Shown here: positions 16,524 to 23,569 of the stretch, piece by piece
How positions within the stretch are numbered: the first letter of the stretch is position 1
Layout of the letters: every line of letters begins with the position of its first letter
DNA from: Bacteroidota bacterium
GTDB lineage: Bacteria > Bacteroidota > Bacteroidia > Bacteroidales > Paludibacteraceae
Reading direction: 5' to 3'
DNA: 64,000 bases
NCBI GenBank assembly: GCA_021779195.1
Contig: JAJYBB010000004.1
Location: 124,001 to 188,000 of the forward strand
Position numbers and translations under genes: made by a program
The notes under the pieces: generated by a model
What the model saw: the letters and a program-made list of their open reading frames with translations, nothing else
The model's database searches: none
What the model was told of the DNA's origin: nothing

Positions 16524-17519
16524 TTAGCCGTATATTTCAATAAATTTCAGAAATGCGTCCTTTGCTTTCCCGCCAGCAAGCGACACAATTGCTTCATTTT
16601 TACATTGTTCAATTGATTTTTCGGGACAACGCGTTTGGATGGCAAAAGCAGAATTAATAATCACCGCATCGCGTTGTGCATCAGTGGCTTGGTAATCGAG
16701 TACTTGCAAAAATATTTTTGCAGCCTCGTCAACAGTATTTCCTCCCCAAAGTTCATGTTGCTGGTGTTTCGCAAATCCCAATTGTTCGGGTGTGAACACA
16801 AATTCTCCCTGATTTGTCTGAATTTTACAAATATCCGTAAGTGAAATTTCATCATAACCATCCAACGAATGAACTATGCTATATTGTACACCCAAATTTT
16901 GATAGATATAATTATATAACCGCATCATTTTCAAATTATATACGCCAAGACATTGATAATTAGGTTTTACAGGACTAATAAGCGGACCCAGCACATTGAA
17001 AAATGTACGAACTCCCAGATTTTTACGCACGGGTGCCACATTTTTCATAGCTGGATTACAAAACGGTGCATGTAAAAATGCAAAACCCGATTGATCTAAA
17101 GATCTTTTAATAATATTAATGTCGGTAGTGAATTTAGCTCCGAAATATTCCAATACATTTGATGCTCCACTCACCGAAGTTGCACCATAATTTCCATGTT
17201 TTGCCACTTTATATCCGGCACCGGCAAGTGTAAAACAACTGCAAGTTGATATGTTGAACGTATTTTTACCATCGCCACCCGTGCCGACAATATCTAAAGG
17301 TTCAAATTCCGACAAATCCATTGGTATTGCCAAACGGAGCAGTGCATCTCTAAAACCGATGATTTCCTCTAACTCAATGCTTCGCATCAGATAAACGGAT
17401 ATAAAGGCTGCAATTTGCGATTCATTATACTTCCCTGCTGCAATATTGGTCATCACTTCAGCAGCTTCATCACGTGTCAGCGATTGATGTTCGAATAATC
17501 TGTTTAATATTTGTTTCAT
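16524..17519 (-). CDS. trpD: Anthranilate phosphoribosyltransferase
   Basis: 331 residues, standard length. The phosphate-binding motif DIVGTGGDGKNTFNISTCS lies near residues 79-97, then KHGNYGATSVSGASNVLEYFGA and a conserved HAPFCNPAMKNVAPVRKNLGVRTFFNVLGPL. The enzyme transfers phosphoribose from PRPP to anthranilate, the second dedicated step of tryptophan synthesis. It follows trpG after 171 bp, a long gap for an operon. trpC, trpF and trpA, which follow trpD in many Bacteroidetes, are not here. Confidence 0.96.
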   Translation of the reverse strand: MKQILNRLFEHQSLTRDEAAEVMTNIAAGKYNESQIAAFISVYLMRSIELEEIIGFRDALLRLAIPMDLSEFEPLDIVGTGGDGKNTFNISTCSCFTLAGAGYKVAKHGNYGATSVSGASNVLEYFGAKFTTDINIIKRSLDQSGFAFLHAPFCNPAMKNVAPVRKNLGVRTFFNVLGPLISPVKPNYQCLGVYNLKMMRLYNYIYQNLGVQYSIVHSLDGYDEISLTDICKIQTNQGEFVFTPEQLGFAKHQQHELWGGNTVDEAAKIFLQVLDYQATDAQRDAVIINSAFAIQTRCPEKSIEQCKNEAIVSLAGGKAKDAFLKFIEIYG

Positions 17520-17690: not shown

Positions 17691-18293
17691 TTACTGTTTC
17701 TCTTTTTTTCGAACGTTGGGAACATCAAAAGAAGTTAACCAATTATTTAATAAGTTTTCTCCCAATGGAGTCAGTACAGATTCCGGATGAAACTGCACCC
17801 CTTTGACATCAAAAATTTTATGTGTTAAAGCCATTATCATTCCTGTTTTATCAACAGCTGTAATTTTTAAACAATCCGGTAAAGTTGATTTTTCGACTGC
17901 CCAGGAATGATACCGCCCAACTTCAATTTGTTTGGGTAAGCCATTGAATATTAGGTCATCTTCTAAAACATCAATCATAGAACTTATGCCATGATACACT
18001 TCCGAAAGATTAATCAATGATCCGCCAAAGGCTTCGGCAATCGCTTGTTCACCTAAACAAACGCCTAAAATACTTTTGCTCGGAGCATAAGTTTTGATTA
18101 CATCCAACAAAATACCAGATTCAGAAGGAACTCCGGGACCTGGCGAAAGAATGATTTTATCAAAACGATCAATATCGTCAATCGAGATTTGGTCATTTCG
18201 ATGGACTTCTAAATCGTTGTACCCTAATTTTTTGACAGCGTGGACTAAGTTATAGGTAAAAGAGTCGTAATTATCGAAAACTAAAATTTTCAT
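17691..18293 (-). CDS. trpG: Anthranilate synthase component II (glutamine amidotransferase)
   Basis: 200 residues of a class I glutamine amidotransferase: ILVFDNYDSFTYNLVH at the start, ILSPGPGVPSESG (oxyanion loop), nucleophile Cys in LGVCLGEQAIAEAFGG, and catalytic His/Glu in GVQFHPESVLT. It supplies ammonia from glutamine to TrpE. The family can also serve p-aminobenzoate synthesis (PabA), but position between trpE and trpD supports TrpG. The gap to trpE is 136 bp. Confidence 0.93.
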   Translation of the reverse strand: MKILVFDNYDSFTYNLVHAVKKLGYNDLEVHRNDQISIDDIDRFDKIILSPGPGVPSESGILLDVIKTYAPSKSILGVCLGEQAIAEAFGGSLINLSEVYHGISSMIDVLEDDLIFNGLPKQIEVGRYHSWAVEKSTLPDCLKITAVDKTGMIMALTHKIFDVKGVQFHPESVLTPLGENLLNNWLTSFDVPNVRKKEKQ

Positions 18294-18429: not shown

Positions 18430-19833
18430 TCAACCTTTGAAAGCTGTTTCAATTGCTTTTTTCAACGCTGCAAGTTTATTATTTACTTCCTGCAATTCAC
18501 TTTCTTCATTTGATTTTGCTACTACACCGGCACCGGCTTGGTAATAAAGCGTATTATTTTTACTCACAAATGATCGAATTGTAATGGCTTGATTAAAACT
18601 GCCATCAAAACCGATGTAACCCAAACAACCACCATAAGGTCCACGATCATGTGGTTCAATTTCATCAATTAATTGCATAGCTTTAATTTTAGGAGCACCC
18701 GAGAGAGTACCTGCTGGAAAAGTATCCGCAAATAGTTTAATTATTTTCGTGTCATTTTTTAACTTTCCACTGACACTCGAAACCAAATGAAGCACGTGCG
18801 AATAATACTGTACTTCCCTGAAAACATCCAAATGAACTTCTTCGGTATTTCTACTTAAATCGTTACGGGCTAAATCAACTAACATGACGTGTTCTGCATT
18901 TTCTTTGGCATCGTTTCGGAGCTTTTCGGCTAAAAGAAAATCCTTTTCATCATCACCGGTTCGTCTGAATGTACCGGCAATCGGTTTGATATATGCTTTC
19001 TGTTTTTTAGCATCAACCACCAAATGAGCTTCGGGTGAAGATCCAAAAATACGAAAACTTCCAAAATTGAAATAAAATAAATAAGGAGAAGGATTTACGG
19101 ATCGCAACGTTCGGTAAAGCATAAAATCATCGCCTTTATACTGTTGATAAAACCTTCTTGAAAGTACAATTTGGAAAACATTCCCCTTATGACATTCTTC
19201 TTTACCTCTGCGAACCATTGCTTTGAAATCTTCATCCGAAATATCACTACACTCCTCTCCGATTGTTTCGAATGTGTATGTGGCAATGTTGTTGTTTTGT
19301 AAAATTTGTTCAACGGATCCGATATTCGATGATTCTCCATCAAGCAGATTCTCAATTATAGTTAATTCATTATTGAAATGATTAATGGCAATAATGTATT
19401 TAAAAAGTAAATAATGCAAGCCAGGCATACTTCCCGGAATTGTTTCGCGTGAAGTGAGCTTTACATCTTCAAAATATTGAACTGCCTCATAGGAAGTATA
19501 TCCAAACAAACCGTTAATATTGAACTTGTTATCATTTTCAACAATTTCAAACGATTTCAAAAATGTATCGAATCGATCAGCTACCGTCATTTTATCAGTA
19601 ACATAAGTTTCAATCTGTCGACCATCAGGATATTCTTCCATGATAACAAATTGATTGACAGATATTCCACCAATTGGATTAAAGCCAATATAGGAAAAAC
19701 TGTTTTCCATCCCATGATAATCCGAGCTTTCAAGCAACACCGAATTCGGATACAAATCGCGCACTTTCAAATAAATACTTACCGGAGTTTGCATATCGGC
19801 AAGCATAGTTTTTGTTTTAACTGTTAATTTCAT
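18430..19833 (-). CDS. trpE: Anthranilate synthase component I
   Basis: 467 residues. The chorismate-binding domain fills the C-terminal half: FQIVLSRRFYQQYKGDD, FGSSPEAHLVV, KPIAGTFRRTGDDEKDFLLAEKLRNDAKENAEHVMLVDLARNDL, then FPAGTLSGAPKIKAMQLIDEIEP and a C-terminal QAGAGVVAKSNEESELQEVNNK. With TrpG it converts chorismate and glutamine to anthranilate. The N-terminal part (LLESSDYHGMENSFSYIGFNPI) resembles the Trp-binding feedback region, but I cannot confirm inhibitor-binding residues. It lies 62 bp after trpB. Confidence 0.95.
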   Translation of the reverse strand: MKLTVKTKTMLADMQTPVSIYLKVRDLYPNSVLLESSDYHGMENSFSYIGFNPIGGISVNQFVIMEEYPDGRQIETYVTDKMTVADRFDTFLKSFEIVENDNKFNINGLFGYTSYEAVQYFEDVKLTSRETIPGSMPGLHYLLFKYIIAINHFNNELTIIENLLDGESSNIGSVEQILQNNNIATYTFETIGEECSDISDEDFKAMVRRGKEECHKGNVFQIVLSRRFYQQYKGDDFMLYRTLRSVNPSPYLFYFNFGSFRIFGSSPEAHLVVDAKKQKAYIKPIAGTFRRTGDDEKDFLLAEKLRNDAKENAEHVMLVDLARNDLSRNTEEVHLDVFREVQYYSHVLHLVSSVSGKLKNDTKIIKLFADTFPAGTLSGAPKIKAMQLIDEIEPHDRGPYGGCLGYIGFDGSFNQAITIRSFVSKNNTLYYQAGAGVVAKSNEESELQEVNNKLAALKKAIETAFKG

Positions 19834-19895: not shown

Positions 19896-21113
19896 TTAAA
19901 CGTACTCTATTTCGTTGTCATGACGAAAAGGTGTTTTGAAATATTTAATATAGGTATCCATATCTTTATCGCCTCGACCTGAAACATTTAATACAACAAC
20001 ATCATCGGTTTTAAATATGTGTTTTTCTTTATTTAATAACGCCAATGCATGAGCAGATTCTATTGCCGGAATAATTCCCTCTAAACGAGTAAGTTCGAAA
20101 GCAGCTTCTAATGCTTCATCGTCGTTGATGGGATACACTTTAGTACGGCCCAACTTTGCAAAAAAAGCATGTGCCGGACCGATTCCCGGATAATCTAATC
20201 CAGCAGAAATAGAGTATGGTTCAATAATTTGGCCATCTTCATCCTGCATCAACAGCGTTTTAGCTCCATGAATAATGCCAATCGTTCCTCGGCTGATAGT
20301 TGCTGCCGTTTTATCCGTTTCTACACCTAATCCACCTGCTTCAGCCGAAATAATCTTCACCCGCTCATCATCTAAATAATAATAATAAGTTCCCATTGCA
20401 TTACTACCGCCACCTACACAAGCCATCAAATAATCGGGGTAATCGCGTCCGGTTTGATCCAGCAATTGAACTTTAATTTCTTCACTGATAACCGATTGAA
20501 AAAATCCAACCATATCGGGATATGGATGTGGACCCACCGTAGAACCGATAATATAAAATGAATCGGGATTAGAGCACCAATACCGAATAGCTTCGTTGGT
20601 GGCATCTTTCAATGTCATGTTTCCACTGGTAACCGGTTCAACAGTTGCTCCAAGCATACGCATTTTCTGAACATTTAGAAACTGACGTTCTACATCCGTT
20701 TTTCCCATAAAAACTATGCATTCCAAGCCCATCAATGCACATGCAGTAGCAGTAGCCACGCCATGTTGACCTGCACCGGTCTCGGCTATAATACGGGTTT
20801 TCCCCATTCGTCTTGCCAAAAGAATTTGTCCCAACGCATTATTGATTTTATGTGCACCCGTGTGGTTCAAATCTTCACGCTTTAAGTAAATATTGGCGTT
20901 GTATTTGGCTGAAAGGCGTTTTGCAAAATACAACGGAGAAGGACGTCCCACATAATTTTTTAGTAAATCGTAGTATTCCGCCCGAAAAGATGCATCATAC
21001 TTGATAGAAAAATATGCATTTTTAAGTTCTTCTACTGTTCCATGAAGAATTTCGGGAATATAGGCTCCACCAAACTCGCCATATAATCCATTTTCGTCAG
21101 CTTGATAATTCAT
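19896..21113 (-). CDS. trpB: Tryptophan synthase beta chain
   Basis: 405 residues. The PLP-binding lysine is Lys89 in LNHTGAHKINNALGQ. Other motifs: GETGAGQHG-type loop (AETGAGQHGVATATACALMGL), VGGGSNAMG (phosphate cup), SAGLDYPGIGP and SGRGDKDMDTY at the end. It condenses indole with serine and is usually a TrpB1 paired with TrpA; trpA is not in this window. It is the first structural gene of the operon, behind the leader peptide and attenuator. Confidence 0.97.
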   Translation of the reverse strand: MNYQADENGLYGEFGGAYIPEILHGTVEELKNAYFSIKYDASFRAEYYDLLKNYVGRPSPLYFAKRLSAKYNANIYLKREDLNHTGAHKINNALGQILLARRMGKTRIIAETGAGQHGVATATACALMGLECIVFMGKTDVERQFLNVQKMRMLGATVEPVTSGNMTLKDATNEAIRYWCSNPDSFYIIGSTVGPHPYPDMVGFFQSVISEEIKVQLLDQTGRDYPDYLMACVGGGSNAMGTYYYYLDDERVKIISAEAGGLGVETDKTAATISRGTIGIIHGAKTLLMQDEDGQIIEPYSISAGLDYPGIGPAHAFFAKLGRTKVYPINDDEALEAAFELTRLEGIIPAIESAHALALLNKEKHIFKTDDVVVLNVSGRGDKDMDTYIKYFKTPFRHDNEIEYV

Positions 21114-21191
21114 ATTTTAGTATATATTTGATTTTAAATAAATTGATCTTTACAATGGAAATTTTCCATCCTCTAAAACGGCTAATTTTTA

Positions 21192-21230
21192 AATTAAAAA
21201 AGGCTTATCGTGAGTTCCGACAAGCCTTTT
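21192..21230 (-). terminator. trp operon attenuator (intrinsic terminator)
   Basis: On the minus strand AAAAGGCTTGTCG pairs with CGATAAGCCTTTT over 13 bp (one G-U) around a 7-nt loop GAACTCA, followed by TTTTTTAATTT. It lies between the leader peptide stop and trpB, with no upstream gene on this strand to terminate, so it fits an attenuator. The segment 21205-21214 (loop plus 3' arm) is perfectly complementary over 10 bp to 21273-21282, which covers the end of the leader peptide frame: a candidate anti-terminator. Confidence 0.88.
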
Positions 21231-21273
21231 GTAATATCTAAATAATTTTGACACTAAACATAGGTGTTACCTC

Positions 21274-21336
21274 TCACGATAAATATATTCGTAAGTGCCA
21301 CCACCAAAATTTGTTTAAAGTCAATTTCACATTCAT
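21274..21336 (-). CDS. trpL: trp operon leader peptide with three consecutive Trp codons
   Basis: A 20-residue open frame, ATG at 21334-21336 and TGA at 21274-21276, with Trp-Trp-Trp encoded by three consecutive TGG codons at 21298-21306 (context NKFWWWHLR). An in-frame stop lies just upstream, so this ATG is the only start. Three adjacent Trp codons in a 20-codon frame, just before an intrinsic terminator and trpB, is the classic signature of ribosome-mediated attenuation: Trp starvation stalls the ribosome there and lets the anti-terminator form. Confidence 0.9.
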   Translation of the reverse strand: MNVKLTLNKFWWWHLRIYLS

Positions 21337-21358
21337 TTTTATATTTCATTTTCGAGTG

Positions 21359-21390
21359 CAAAGATGATATAATAATTTTATTTATGCAAG
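21359..21390 (-). promoter_or_regulatory. Putative trp operon promoter
   Basis: On the minus strand CTTG (21387-21390), a 20-nt spacer, then CATCTTTG (21359-21366) match the Bacteroidetes -33/-7 pattern TTTG / TAnnTTTG with one mismatch in each element. Transcription would start near 21352, about 16 nt before the leader ATG. Confidence 0.45.
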
Positions 21391-21648
21391 AAATTATAGT
21401 TTTTTATCGATTCGTTATGTTAAATGTAGATGTTCAGATTATGAACAATACAATTATATTGATTTTTAGCCACTTAAAAAATCTGTATTGATCAAGAAAC
21501 AAGATTTAATCGTAGAATTTAAGTTATTGCATGCCAATCTCGATTTGACAAACGGTTATATTTTAAATTCTTTTCTTTGAGTCATACAACTTATTGATTG
21601 AAATTTTGTAATTTCGCAACCTAAAAACACAAGCAAATCAGAGTTGAA

Positions 21649-22405: not shown

Positions 22406-23569
22406 ATGAATACAGGAAAATACGTTTTTGCACAAATGATTGAGGTTTTACCTCAACGAGTTTTTGACGGATTTGTAGCAAAATATGAAGGCAATAAATA
22501 TGTAAAACATTTTACCTGTTGGAATCAACTTCTGGTAATGATGTTTGGTCAACTTGCAAATCGTGATAGCCTTCGGGATTTGATTTTAGCAATAGACGCG
22601 CATAGTCAAAAGAAATATCATTTGGGATTTGGGAAGAATGTTACTCGCAGTAATCTTTCCAAAGCAAATGAAAAACGTGATAGCAAAATCTTTGAAGACT
22701 ATGCTTATTATTTGATTGATATTGCCCGTAAGGGGCGTTCAAACGATGATTTTGAAATAGAAGGTAAAGTTTATGCTTTTGATTCTTCGACCATTGATTT
22801 ATGTTTGAATGTATTTTGGTGGGCAAAGTTTCGCAAAACAAAAGCAGGCATTAAACTTCATACGCTCTATGATATAACGACTCAGATTCCGGCATTCATT
22901 CATATTACAAACGCAACAGTAAATGATGTGAATGCGATGGATGTAATTCCTTATGAATCTGATGCATATTATATATTTGATCGTGGATATGTTGATTTCA
23001 AAAGGCTTCATAATATCACAAAGCATACAGCTTATTTTGTGATTAGAGCCAAAAAGAATCTCCAGTTCCAGTGCACTCAACTAAAACCGATTAATGAGAA
23101 AAACGGAGTCATGAGTGATCAAATAGGCAAACTTACGGGATTTTATATATCGCAATATTACCCGGAGGAAATTAGAAAAGTAGTTTATTATGATAAGGAA
23201 ACAAATAGAACATTTGTTTATCTGACCAATAACATGGAACTACCTTCTGAACAGATAGCATTGCTTTATAAAAATCGTTGGCAAATAGAGCTATTCTTCA
23301 AATGGATTAAACAGCATTTAAAGATTAAGTCCTTTTGGGGTACTACAGAAAATGCTGTCAGAATACAAATATATACTGCTGTAATATCATATTGCTTAGT
23401 TGCAATCATTGAAAATGAACTAATGATTAACCGTTCAACATATGAAGTTCTACAGATATTAGGCATTTCACTGTTCGACAAATCGCCAATTGGTGAGCTC
23501 TTTTTTAATAAAAATAGAAATGATGTCAAAGAACTTCCGTCAGATCAACTGACTATTAAATTTTTTTAG
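22406..23569 (+). CDS. IS4-family DDE transposase (DUF4372 N-terminus)
   Basis: 387 residues. The N-terminal part (about 1-80) looks like DUF4372 (FVAKYEGNKYVKHFTCWNQLLVMMFGQLANRDSLRDL). The catalytic triad fits D126 (VYAFDSSTIDL), D192 (YIFDRGYVDF) and E295. The IS4 signature Y-x2-R-x3-E-x6-K is met by YKNRWQIELFFKWIK. The frame is complete. The protein cuts and joins IS ends. Confidence 0.95.
   Translation: MNTGKYVFAQMIEVLPQRVFDGFVAKYEGNKYVKHFTCWNQLLVMMFGQLANRDSLRDLILAIDAHSQKKYHLGFGKNVTRSNLSKANEKRDSKIFEDYAYYLIDIARKGRSNDDFEIEGKVYAFDSSTIDLCLNVFWWAKFRKTKAGIKLHTLYDITTQIPAFIHITNATVNDVNAMDVIPYESDAYYIFDRGYVDFKRLHNITKHTAYFVIRAKKNLQFQCTQLKPINEKNGVMSDQIGKLTGFYISQYYPEEIRKVVYYDKETNRTFVYLTNNMELPSEQIALLYKNRWQIELFFKWIKQHLKIKSFWGTTENAVRIQIYTAVISYCLVAIIENELMINRSTYEVLQILGISLFDKSPIGELFFNKNRNDVKELPSDQLTIKFF

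Follow-up and report, generated by a model that had tools for sequence, protein, structure and literature searches.

Upstream of the tryptophan genes of a Bacteroidota bacterium of the Paludibacteraceae lies what is very probably a ribosome-mediated transcription attenuator of the RF01692 family, which controls trpBEGD and in which an RNA strand freed by ribosome stalling (strand 2) catches a partner within the terminator (strand 2'). Through such stalling the leader RNA probably senses tryptophan, and stops or allows transcription of the trp genes. Sequence and comparison together support the Trp-codon leader, a 1:2 hairpin, a predicted terminator and a 2:2' complementarity that appears to be under selection. 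A first-pass annotation of the same 64,000 nucleotides, the whole stretch analysed here and called the window below, had suggested a Trp attenuator of the leader-peptide type that includes an antiterminator. This proposal gains support from a leader with adjacent Trp codons (WW) in 31 of 33 trpB-bearing genomes of the genus and from terminator and antiterminator pairings that are both kept in relatives.

Leader, terminator and downstream genes

All parts of the element lie on the minus strand. The leader peptide ORF (MNVKLTLNKFWWWHLRIYLS*, 21274..21336) has 20 codons and agrees base for base with the frame annotated earlier. Its three consecutive Trp codons (TGG TGG TGG, 21298..21306), read from the sequence and the alignment, are predicted to be the regulatory ones. 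Strand 1 (CUUACGA, 21289..21295), identified by folding and RNAalifold, is contained in the His-Leu-Arg codons after the Trp codons, and strand 2 (UCGUGAG, 21273..21279, or 21273-21282 in its 10-nt extended form), defined from the alignment, lies over the leader stop codon. CUUACGA and UCGUGAG can form a competing 1:2 hairpin. The terminator predicted from the sequence is present as first described, with 13 pairs, one of them G-U, and a U-tract. Its 5' (ascending) arm AAAAGGCTTGTCG (21218..21230) and its 3' (descending) arm CGATAAGCCTTTT (21198..21210, with the U-tract on to 21196) are both backed by the sequence, RNAalifold and covariation, and they enclose the loop GAACTCA (21211..21217).

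The 10-nt complement pointed out in the first-pass annotation, TTATCGTGAG (21282-21273) with CTCACGATAA (21214-21205), is exact. Strand 2' (CUCACGAUAA, 21205..21214), defined by the alignment and by the swap and shuffle tests described below, consists of the second half of the terminator loop and the top of the 3' arm; its core, CUCACGA, is made up of the loop end and the first bases of the descending arm. The gap between the two strands of the 2:2' pair is 58 nt. Absent from the earlier description were the 1:2 hairpin and the location of the complement, which sits on the terminator loop and 3' arm and not on the 5' arm.

A possible -33 element (TTG, 21387..21389) is found 20 nt before a likely promoter -7 element (CATCTTTG, 21359..21366), the former being called from the sequence and the spacing rule for such element pairs. 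The -7 element agrees with 7/8 of the consensus TAnnTTTG as quoted in the text of PMC6414381, and NAnnTTTG is present 21-39 nt 5' of the leader ATG in 36/36 leaders.

A chance origin of the combined parts, already judged unlikely from inspection, is disfavoured by shuffles, a scan of the window, simulated windows and the Rfam match. The leader folds 6.25 sd below its shuffles, none of which (0/200) is as stable. Over the whole 64-kb window and both strands, the single leader-like ATG-started ORF with a terminator is this leader; the scan, which used ATG starts and a few residue patterns, returned no further leader-type attenuators. Among Markov-simulated windows, 0/60 combined such a hairpin with a 10-40-codon WWW frame. 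The match to RF01692 (Bacteroid-trp) spans 21219..21352 over the full model length (1-131) and scores 51.9 bits against a gathering threshold of 49. Its end falls within the 5' arm of the terminator, and the model accordingly includes neither the 3' arm nor strand 2'. The genome itself holds one copy above the cut-off and three more matches with E-values of 1.4 to 9.4.

Downstream of the terminator, the minus strand carries trpB, trpE, trpG and trpD, in agreement with the gene assignment made at first reading. The first gene under predicted control, trpB (19896..21113), scores above the cut-off of TIGR00263, as do trpG (17691..18293) for TIGR00566, a model for the trpG or pabA amidotransferase, and trpD (16524..17519) for TIGR01245. 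For trpE (18430..19833), the best-scoring trpE model is TIGR00564, with an E-value of 3.8e-123 and a score of 411.9 that lies below the curated cut-off of 517.7.

The remaining trp genes are located elsewhere. trpA is on another contig (G000:C13:49905-50609, L265), with threonyl-tRNA synthetase-like and PurM-like ORFs, identified by eye, as neighbours, and trpC is found with a trpF-like ORF, also identified by eye, on a third (G000:C32:56795-57541, L266), giving a split trp pathway. The fetched loci of trpA and trpC yielded no WW leader with an ATG start and at most 40 codons. At G000:C28:183639-184697 (L002) the genome has another TrpB-like gene, a distant one with 36% identity. Near the trp/his divergent region of the window, an IS4 family transposase (22406-23569) lies between hisIE and an ORF that resembles an ABC transporter ATPase by eye. 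Some relatives (L036, L037, L041, L056) have CCCCTAAAGGGG-like repeats between terminator and trpB, and a search expression for them matched 10/36 relatives; none of the repeat words sought occurs in the window. In 16/36 relatives, counted by eye, TrpB has apparently gained an N-terminal tail with SPLGxG or a similar motif at its end, which looks as if it had arisen from a palindromic repeat turned coding.

Conservation in the genus and order

Conservation was assessed in the genome itself and 59 relatives. RF01692 was detected in 30/60 of these genomes at E ≤ 0.001, in 22/60 above the cut-off and in 27/36 within the genus; TrpB was found in 46/60. When scans were started from trpB, a WW leader was located 5' of the gene in 31/33 trpB-bearing genomes of the same genus, and in the other two (G001, G019) trpB lies at a contig edge. 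In the other genera of the order, 5/13 trpB-bearing genomes have a WW leader before trpB, and none was found within 600 nt 5' of trpB in the remaining 8/13. The 36 WW leaders include 31 with three or more Trp codons and 5 with two. As the scans demanded WW, counts of leaders with at least two Trp codons are true by construction, and the informative conservation count is 31/33 genomes. Loss of the TGG run in relatives had been named beforehand as one outcome that would speak against an attenuator. It was not found: adjacent Trp codons are kept before trpB in these 31/33 genomes of the genus.

An alignment (A1) was made of 35 leaders, excluding G053, whose core did not fit the search expression. 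Run on these, RNAalifold returned both the CUUAC:GUGAG hairpin, with 97.1% of cells paired, and the terminator unprompted. In the structure combining 1:2 and the terminator, three pairs have changed on both sides, all of them in the terminator, and its covariation score was reached by 0/500 shuffles. The 2:2' pairing is intact in 98.8% of cases over the 35 sequences, and this value falls to 16-57% when the strands are slid by 1-3 columns. Both stems named in the first-pass annotation are thus kept. No 2:2' pair has both sides changed within the genus alignment, where all shuffles equal the observed value; with these sequences, covariation in the genus alignment alone can provide no proof of 2:2'. 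UCGUGAG or CCGUGAG is kept after the stop where the leader ends earlier with UAA or UAG (G015, G017, G053 and others), which points to a constraint on the RNA rather than on the peptide.

A model (R1) built from A2, comprising 28 of the 35 rows, matched 70/295 genomes of the class at E ≤ 0.01. These matches were dropped as counts: among 29 loci inspected (L080-L108), 24 had a trp gene match and 5 had none. Outside the order, the same leader type stands before trpE in inspected loci such as L083, L089 and L102, and at L106 an R1 match containing TGG codons is close to a match for trpD.

The terminator arm predicted to pair with strand 2

Two wider samples were examined. One consisted of 80 named trpB loci, roughly the first half of which are close Paludibacter relatives; the other comprised the upstream regions of 69 trpE genes, drawn across the class, where 74/227 genomes had TrpE at E ≤ 1e-90. 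Two regions of the trpB set were too short. A WW leader with a terminator was present in 129/147 usable regions (72/78 trpB, 57/69 trpE), and the scan found none in 18/147, some of which are short contig ends. One leader (L203) was set by hand and counted with the window's order in the swap test. Thinning to less than 80% likeness retained 64 of the 129 elements and dropped 65.

In the swap test, the strand-2 segment, taken from 10 to 34 nt past the last Trp codon, was paired with its own terminator or with those of other genomes, kinship being ignored. Over all 64 elements, pairing with the loop and 3' arm gave -8.81 kcal/mol for own and -6.15 kcal/mol for swapped terminators, and 0/2000 permutations were as low. 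For the loop and 5' arm the values were -9.15 and -6.70 kcal/mol, again with 0/2000 as low. A control segment located 34-60 nt downstream gave 321/2000 on the 3' side and 1992/2000 on the 5' side. The 22 elements of the window's order (21 from the trpB set and one trpE-first) yielded 0/2000 for the loop and 3' arm and 5/2000 for the 3' arm alone, compared with 110/2000 for the loop and 5' arm and 1515/2000 for the 5' arm alone. In the other 42 elements, 0/2000 permutations were as low for the loop and 5' arm, none for the 5' arm alone or for the loop and 3' arm, and 6 for the 3' arm alone. By this sequence-based measure both designs are present among these 42, and it is because they mix the two that the loop and 5' arm also beat swapped terminators over all 64.

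An arm test compared each element with shuffles of its strand-2 segment (p ≤ 0.05), again ignoring kinship. In the trpB set, 67 of 72 elements passed on the 3' side only, none on the 5' side only, one on both and four on neither; given the many close relatives in this set, 67/72 does not amount to 72 independent cases. In the class-wide trpE set, the corresponding numbers were 14, 26, 1 and 16 of 57. Two runs gave slightly different counts because the shuffles are random (68 and 67 of 72 3'-only; 27 and 26 of 57 5'-only; 16 and 14 of 57 3'-only). At p ≤ 0.01, 53/72 of the trpB set and 19 and 10 of 57 of the trpE set passed, and with a random partner 18/72 and 5/57 did so. In the controls, the downstream segment passed in 6/70 and 2/31 cases, all on the 3' side. 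A random foreign terminator passed in 24/72 trpB-set elements on the 3' side, plus one on both, these sequences being alike; of the 57 class-set elements, 6 plus 6 passed.

The pairs themselves differ on both sides between lineages. Descending-arm pairs include UCGUGAG/CUCACGA, GUCGUAAG/CUUACGAC, GUCGUGAAU/AUUCACGAC, AACGUGA/UCACGUU, CCGGGG/CCCCGG and UCGCUGUGA/UCACAGCGG, and ascending-arm pairs include GAACAGC/GCUGUUC and UUGAAUCGG/CCGAUUCAA.

These results bear on three other readings of the element. In trp attenuation of E. coli, the antiterminator is formed by region 2 with region 3, the ascending arm of the terminator, and this textbook arrangement has counterparts in the class, where the 26 of 57 trpE-sample leaders match the 5' side only. 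The same test applied to E. coli trp favours the ascending side by direction without passing 0.05 (p = 0.08 and 0.065 for two choices of segment and 0.675 for a third, compared with 0.96-0.99 on the 3' side). For the window element, however, it has only a faint chance of being correct: the 5' arm alone carries no signal in the window's order, and no element of the trpB set, many of them near relatives, was 5'-only. Very improbable, too, is an ordinary terminator in which the 1:2 hairpin and the stop codon are the sole reasons for the conservation of UCGUGAG, the 2:2' complementarity being a by-product. Such an origin would agree with the near-invariance of strand 2 in the genus, part of which is explained by 1:2, and with the lack of double changes in 2:2' there, but it is difficult to reconcile with the retention of UCGUGAG where the leader stops earlier, with the way strands 2 and 2' differ in concert in other genera (GUCGUAAG/CUUACGAC, GUCGUGAAU/AUUCACGAC, CCGGGG/CCCCGG, UCGCUGUGA/UCACAGCGG) and with the preference for the own loop and 3' arm in the swap test.

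The chance that a regulatory protein or a tRNA, of the TRAP or T-box type, reads the leader in place of a stalled ribosome is fainter still. TRAP-controlled trp leaders contain (G/U)AG repeats to which TRAP binds, and the strong conservation of the terminator sequence can mean protein binding. This conservation is accounted for by the double use of the terminator loop, however, and an ORF with adjacent Trp codons stands at this place in 31/33 trpB-bearing genomes of the genus. Within 21100-21450, moreover, RF01692 is the only family to reach its Rfam gathering threshold, and no T-box match was obtained at that threshold.

Proposed mode of action, family and the two-design picture

A leader-peptide attenuator with a descending-arm antiterminator would work as follows. 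With enough Trp-tRNA, the ribosome would run to the stop codon and cover strand 2, and the terminator would form; with no ribosome on the leader, 1:2 would trap strand 2 and the terminator would form as well. A ribosome stalled at the second or third TGG would cover strand 1 and leave strand 2 free to catch strand 2' in the terminator loop while it emerges from RNA polymerase. Closure of the hairpin might then be delayed until the polymerase has cleared the U-tract. Such a switch would be kinetic, the terminator being the stabler fold once the whole 3' arm is out.

Masked folding is consistent with this scheme. It considered equilibrium, pseudoknot-free ensembles at fixed lengths, with an assumed ribosome coverage of 13 nt. 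With no ribosome, P(1:2) was 1.00 and P(2:2') 0.00, and the terminator forms; with the ribosome at the stop codon strand 2 is covered, P(2:2') was likewise 0.00 and the terminator forms. For a ribosome at TGG2 or TGG3, P(2:2') was 1.00 with CUCACGA just emerged and 1.00 with the transcript extended to GC, 0.57 and 0.74 when extended to GCC, and 0.00 with the whole arm out. At TGG1 the values were 1.00, then 0.91, then 0.04, the terminator being ahead already with GCC out. Because a stalled ribosome does not keep the complete terminator from prevailing at equilibrium in the folding model, antitermination would rest on kinetics, with the antiterminator as a decoy that has to act before the last bases of the arm emerge from the polymerase. 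Of the features that define a leader-peptide attenuator, the short ORF with repeated Trp codons is present (WWW), an intrinsic terminator between leader and first gene is indicated by sequence and covariation, and a mutually exclusive structure freed by stalling is suggested by comparison and folding.

Judged by its sequence, the window element is an ordinary member of the catalogued family RF01692. It occurs in Bacteroidetes with trp genes downstream, its nearest named relatives being mostly Paludibacter or Bacteroidales, and it resembles Bacteroid-trp in phylum, gene context, and sequence and structure over the full model, whereas the model lacks the terminator 3' arm and the antiterminator pairing. 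The element shares with E. coli trpL the Trp codons in a short leader ORF, the 1:2 hairpin, the terminator and an antiterminator that would be freed by stalling. It differs in phylum, in having the leader stop codon inside strand 2, and in the use of the loop and descending arm, as against the 2:3 pairing with the ascending arm in the antiterminator of E. coli.

The first-pass annotation had left open how well such attenuation is documented in Bacteroidetes. The RNA family itself is on record, Table 1 of Weinberg et al. 2010 (PMC2864571) listing the Bacteroid-trp motif for Bacteroidetes as an RNA and as cis-regulatory (both y) and not as a riboswitch (n). A 2019 study of F. psychrophilum describes a Bacteroid-trp element conserved upstream of the trp operon, as in the window, and likens its structure to the E. 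coli leader, so that a trp attenuator in Bacteroidetes has already been suggested in print (PMC6414381). A transcriptome paper from 2021 presents strong indications of attenuation by leader peptides upstream of amino-acid operons (PMC9723704), and a map of B. thetaiotaomicron mentions long 5' UTRs whose short ORFs recall leaders of this kind (PMC7366714). How the strands of the switch would pair was not found described in the searched text of the F. psychrophilum leader reports (PMC6414381, PMC9723704). In the partial texts searched we found no mutational test of trp attenuation in Bacteroidetes and, supplements and subscription papers lying outside the search, no earlier description of descending-arm pairing. 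What seems to be new here is this pairing, together with the statistics behind it and the picture of two designs.

It is fairly likely, in our estimation, that the Trp attenuators of the class Bacteroidia comprise two mirror-image designs, one using the loop and descending arm and the other the loop and ascending arm, which have been exchanged more than once between lineages with the loop as a shared foothold. Only 2/129 leaders passed on both sides in the arm test, and both designs occur within each of four family codes (f43, f63, f65 and f90). On a TrpE tree the design label needs at least 10 changes, 2 of which are forced by well-supported branches; this tree is of a quick kind, with 49 rows of which 44 are labelled, many poorly resolved branches and some long end branches, and its labels come from the first of the two arm-test runs (68/72, 27/57, 16/57). 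Once the hairpin has closed, a descending-arm design can no longer act, so that it should be kinetic.

With this analysis, a leader that had no annotation joins a catalogued RNA family, for which a testable mechanism can now be offered. Were the two-arm picture true, the same regulatory logic would have been built from either half of the terminator within one class, and these leaders would offer a natural experiment on how antitermination works.
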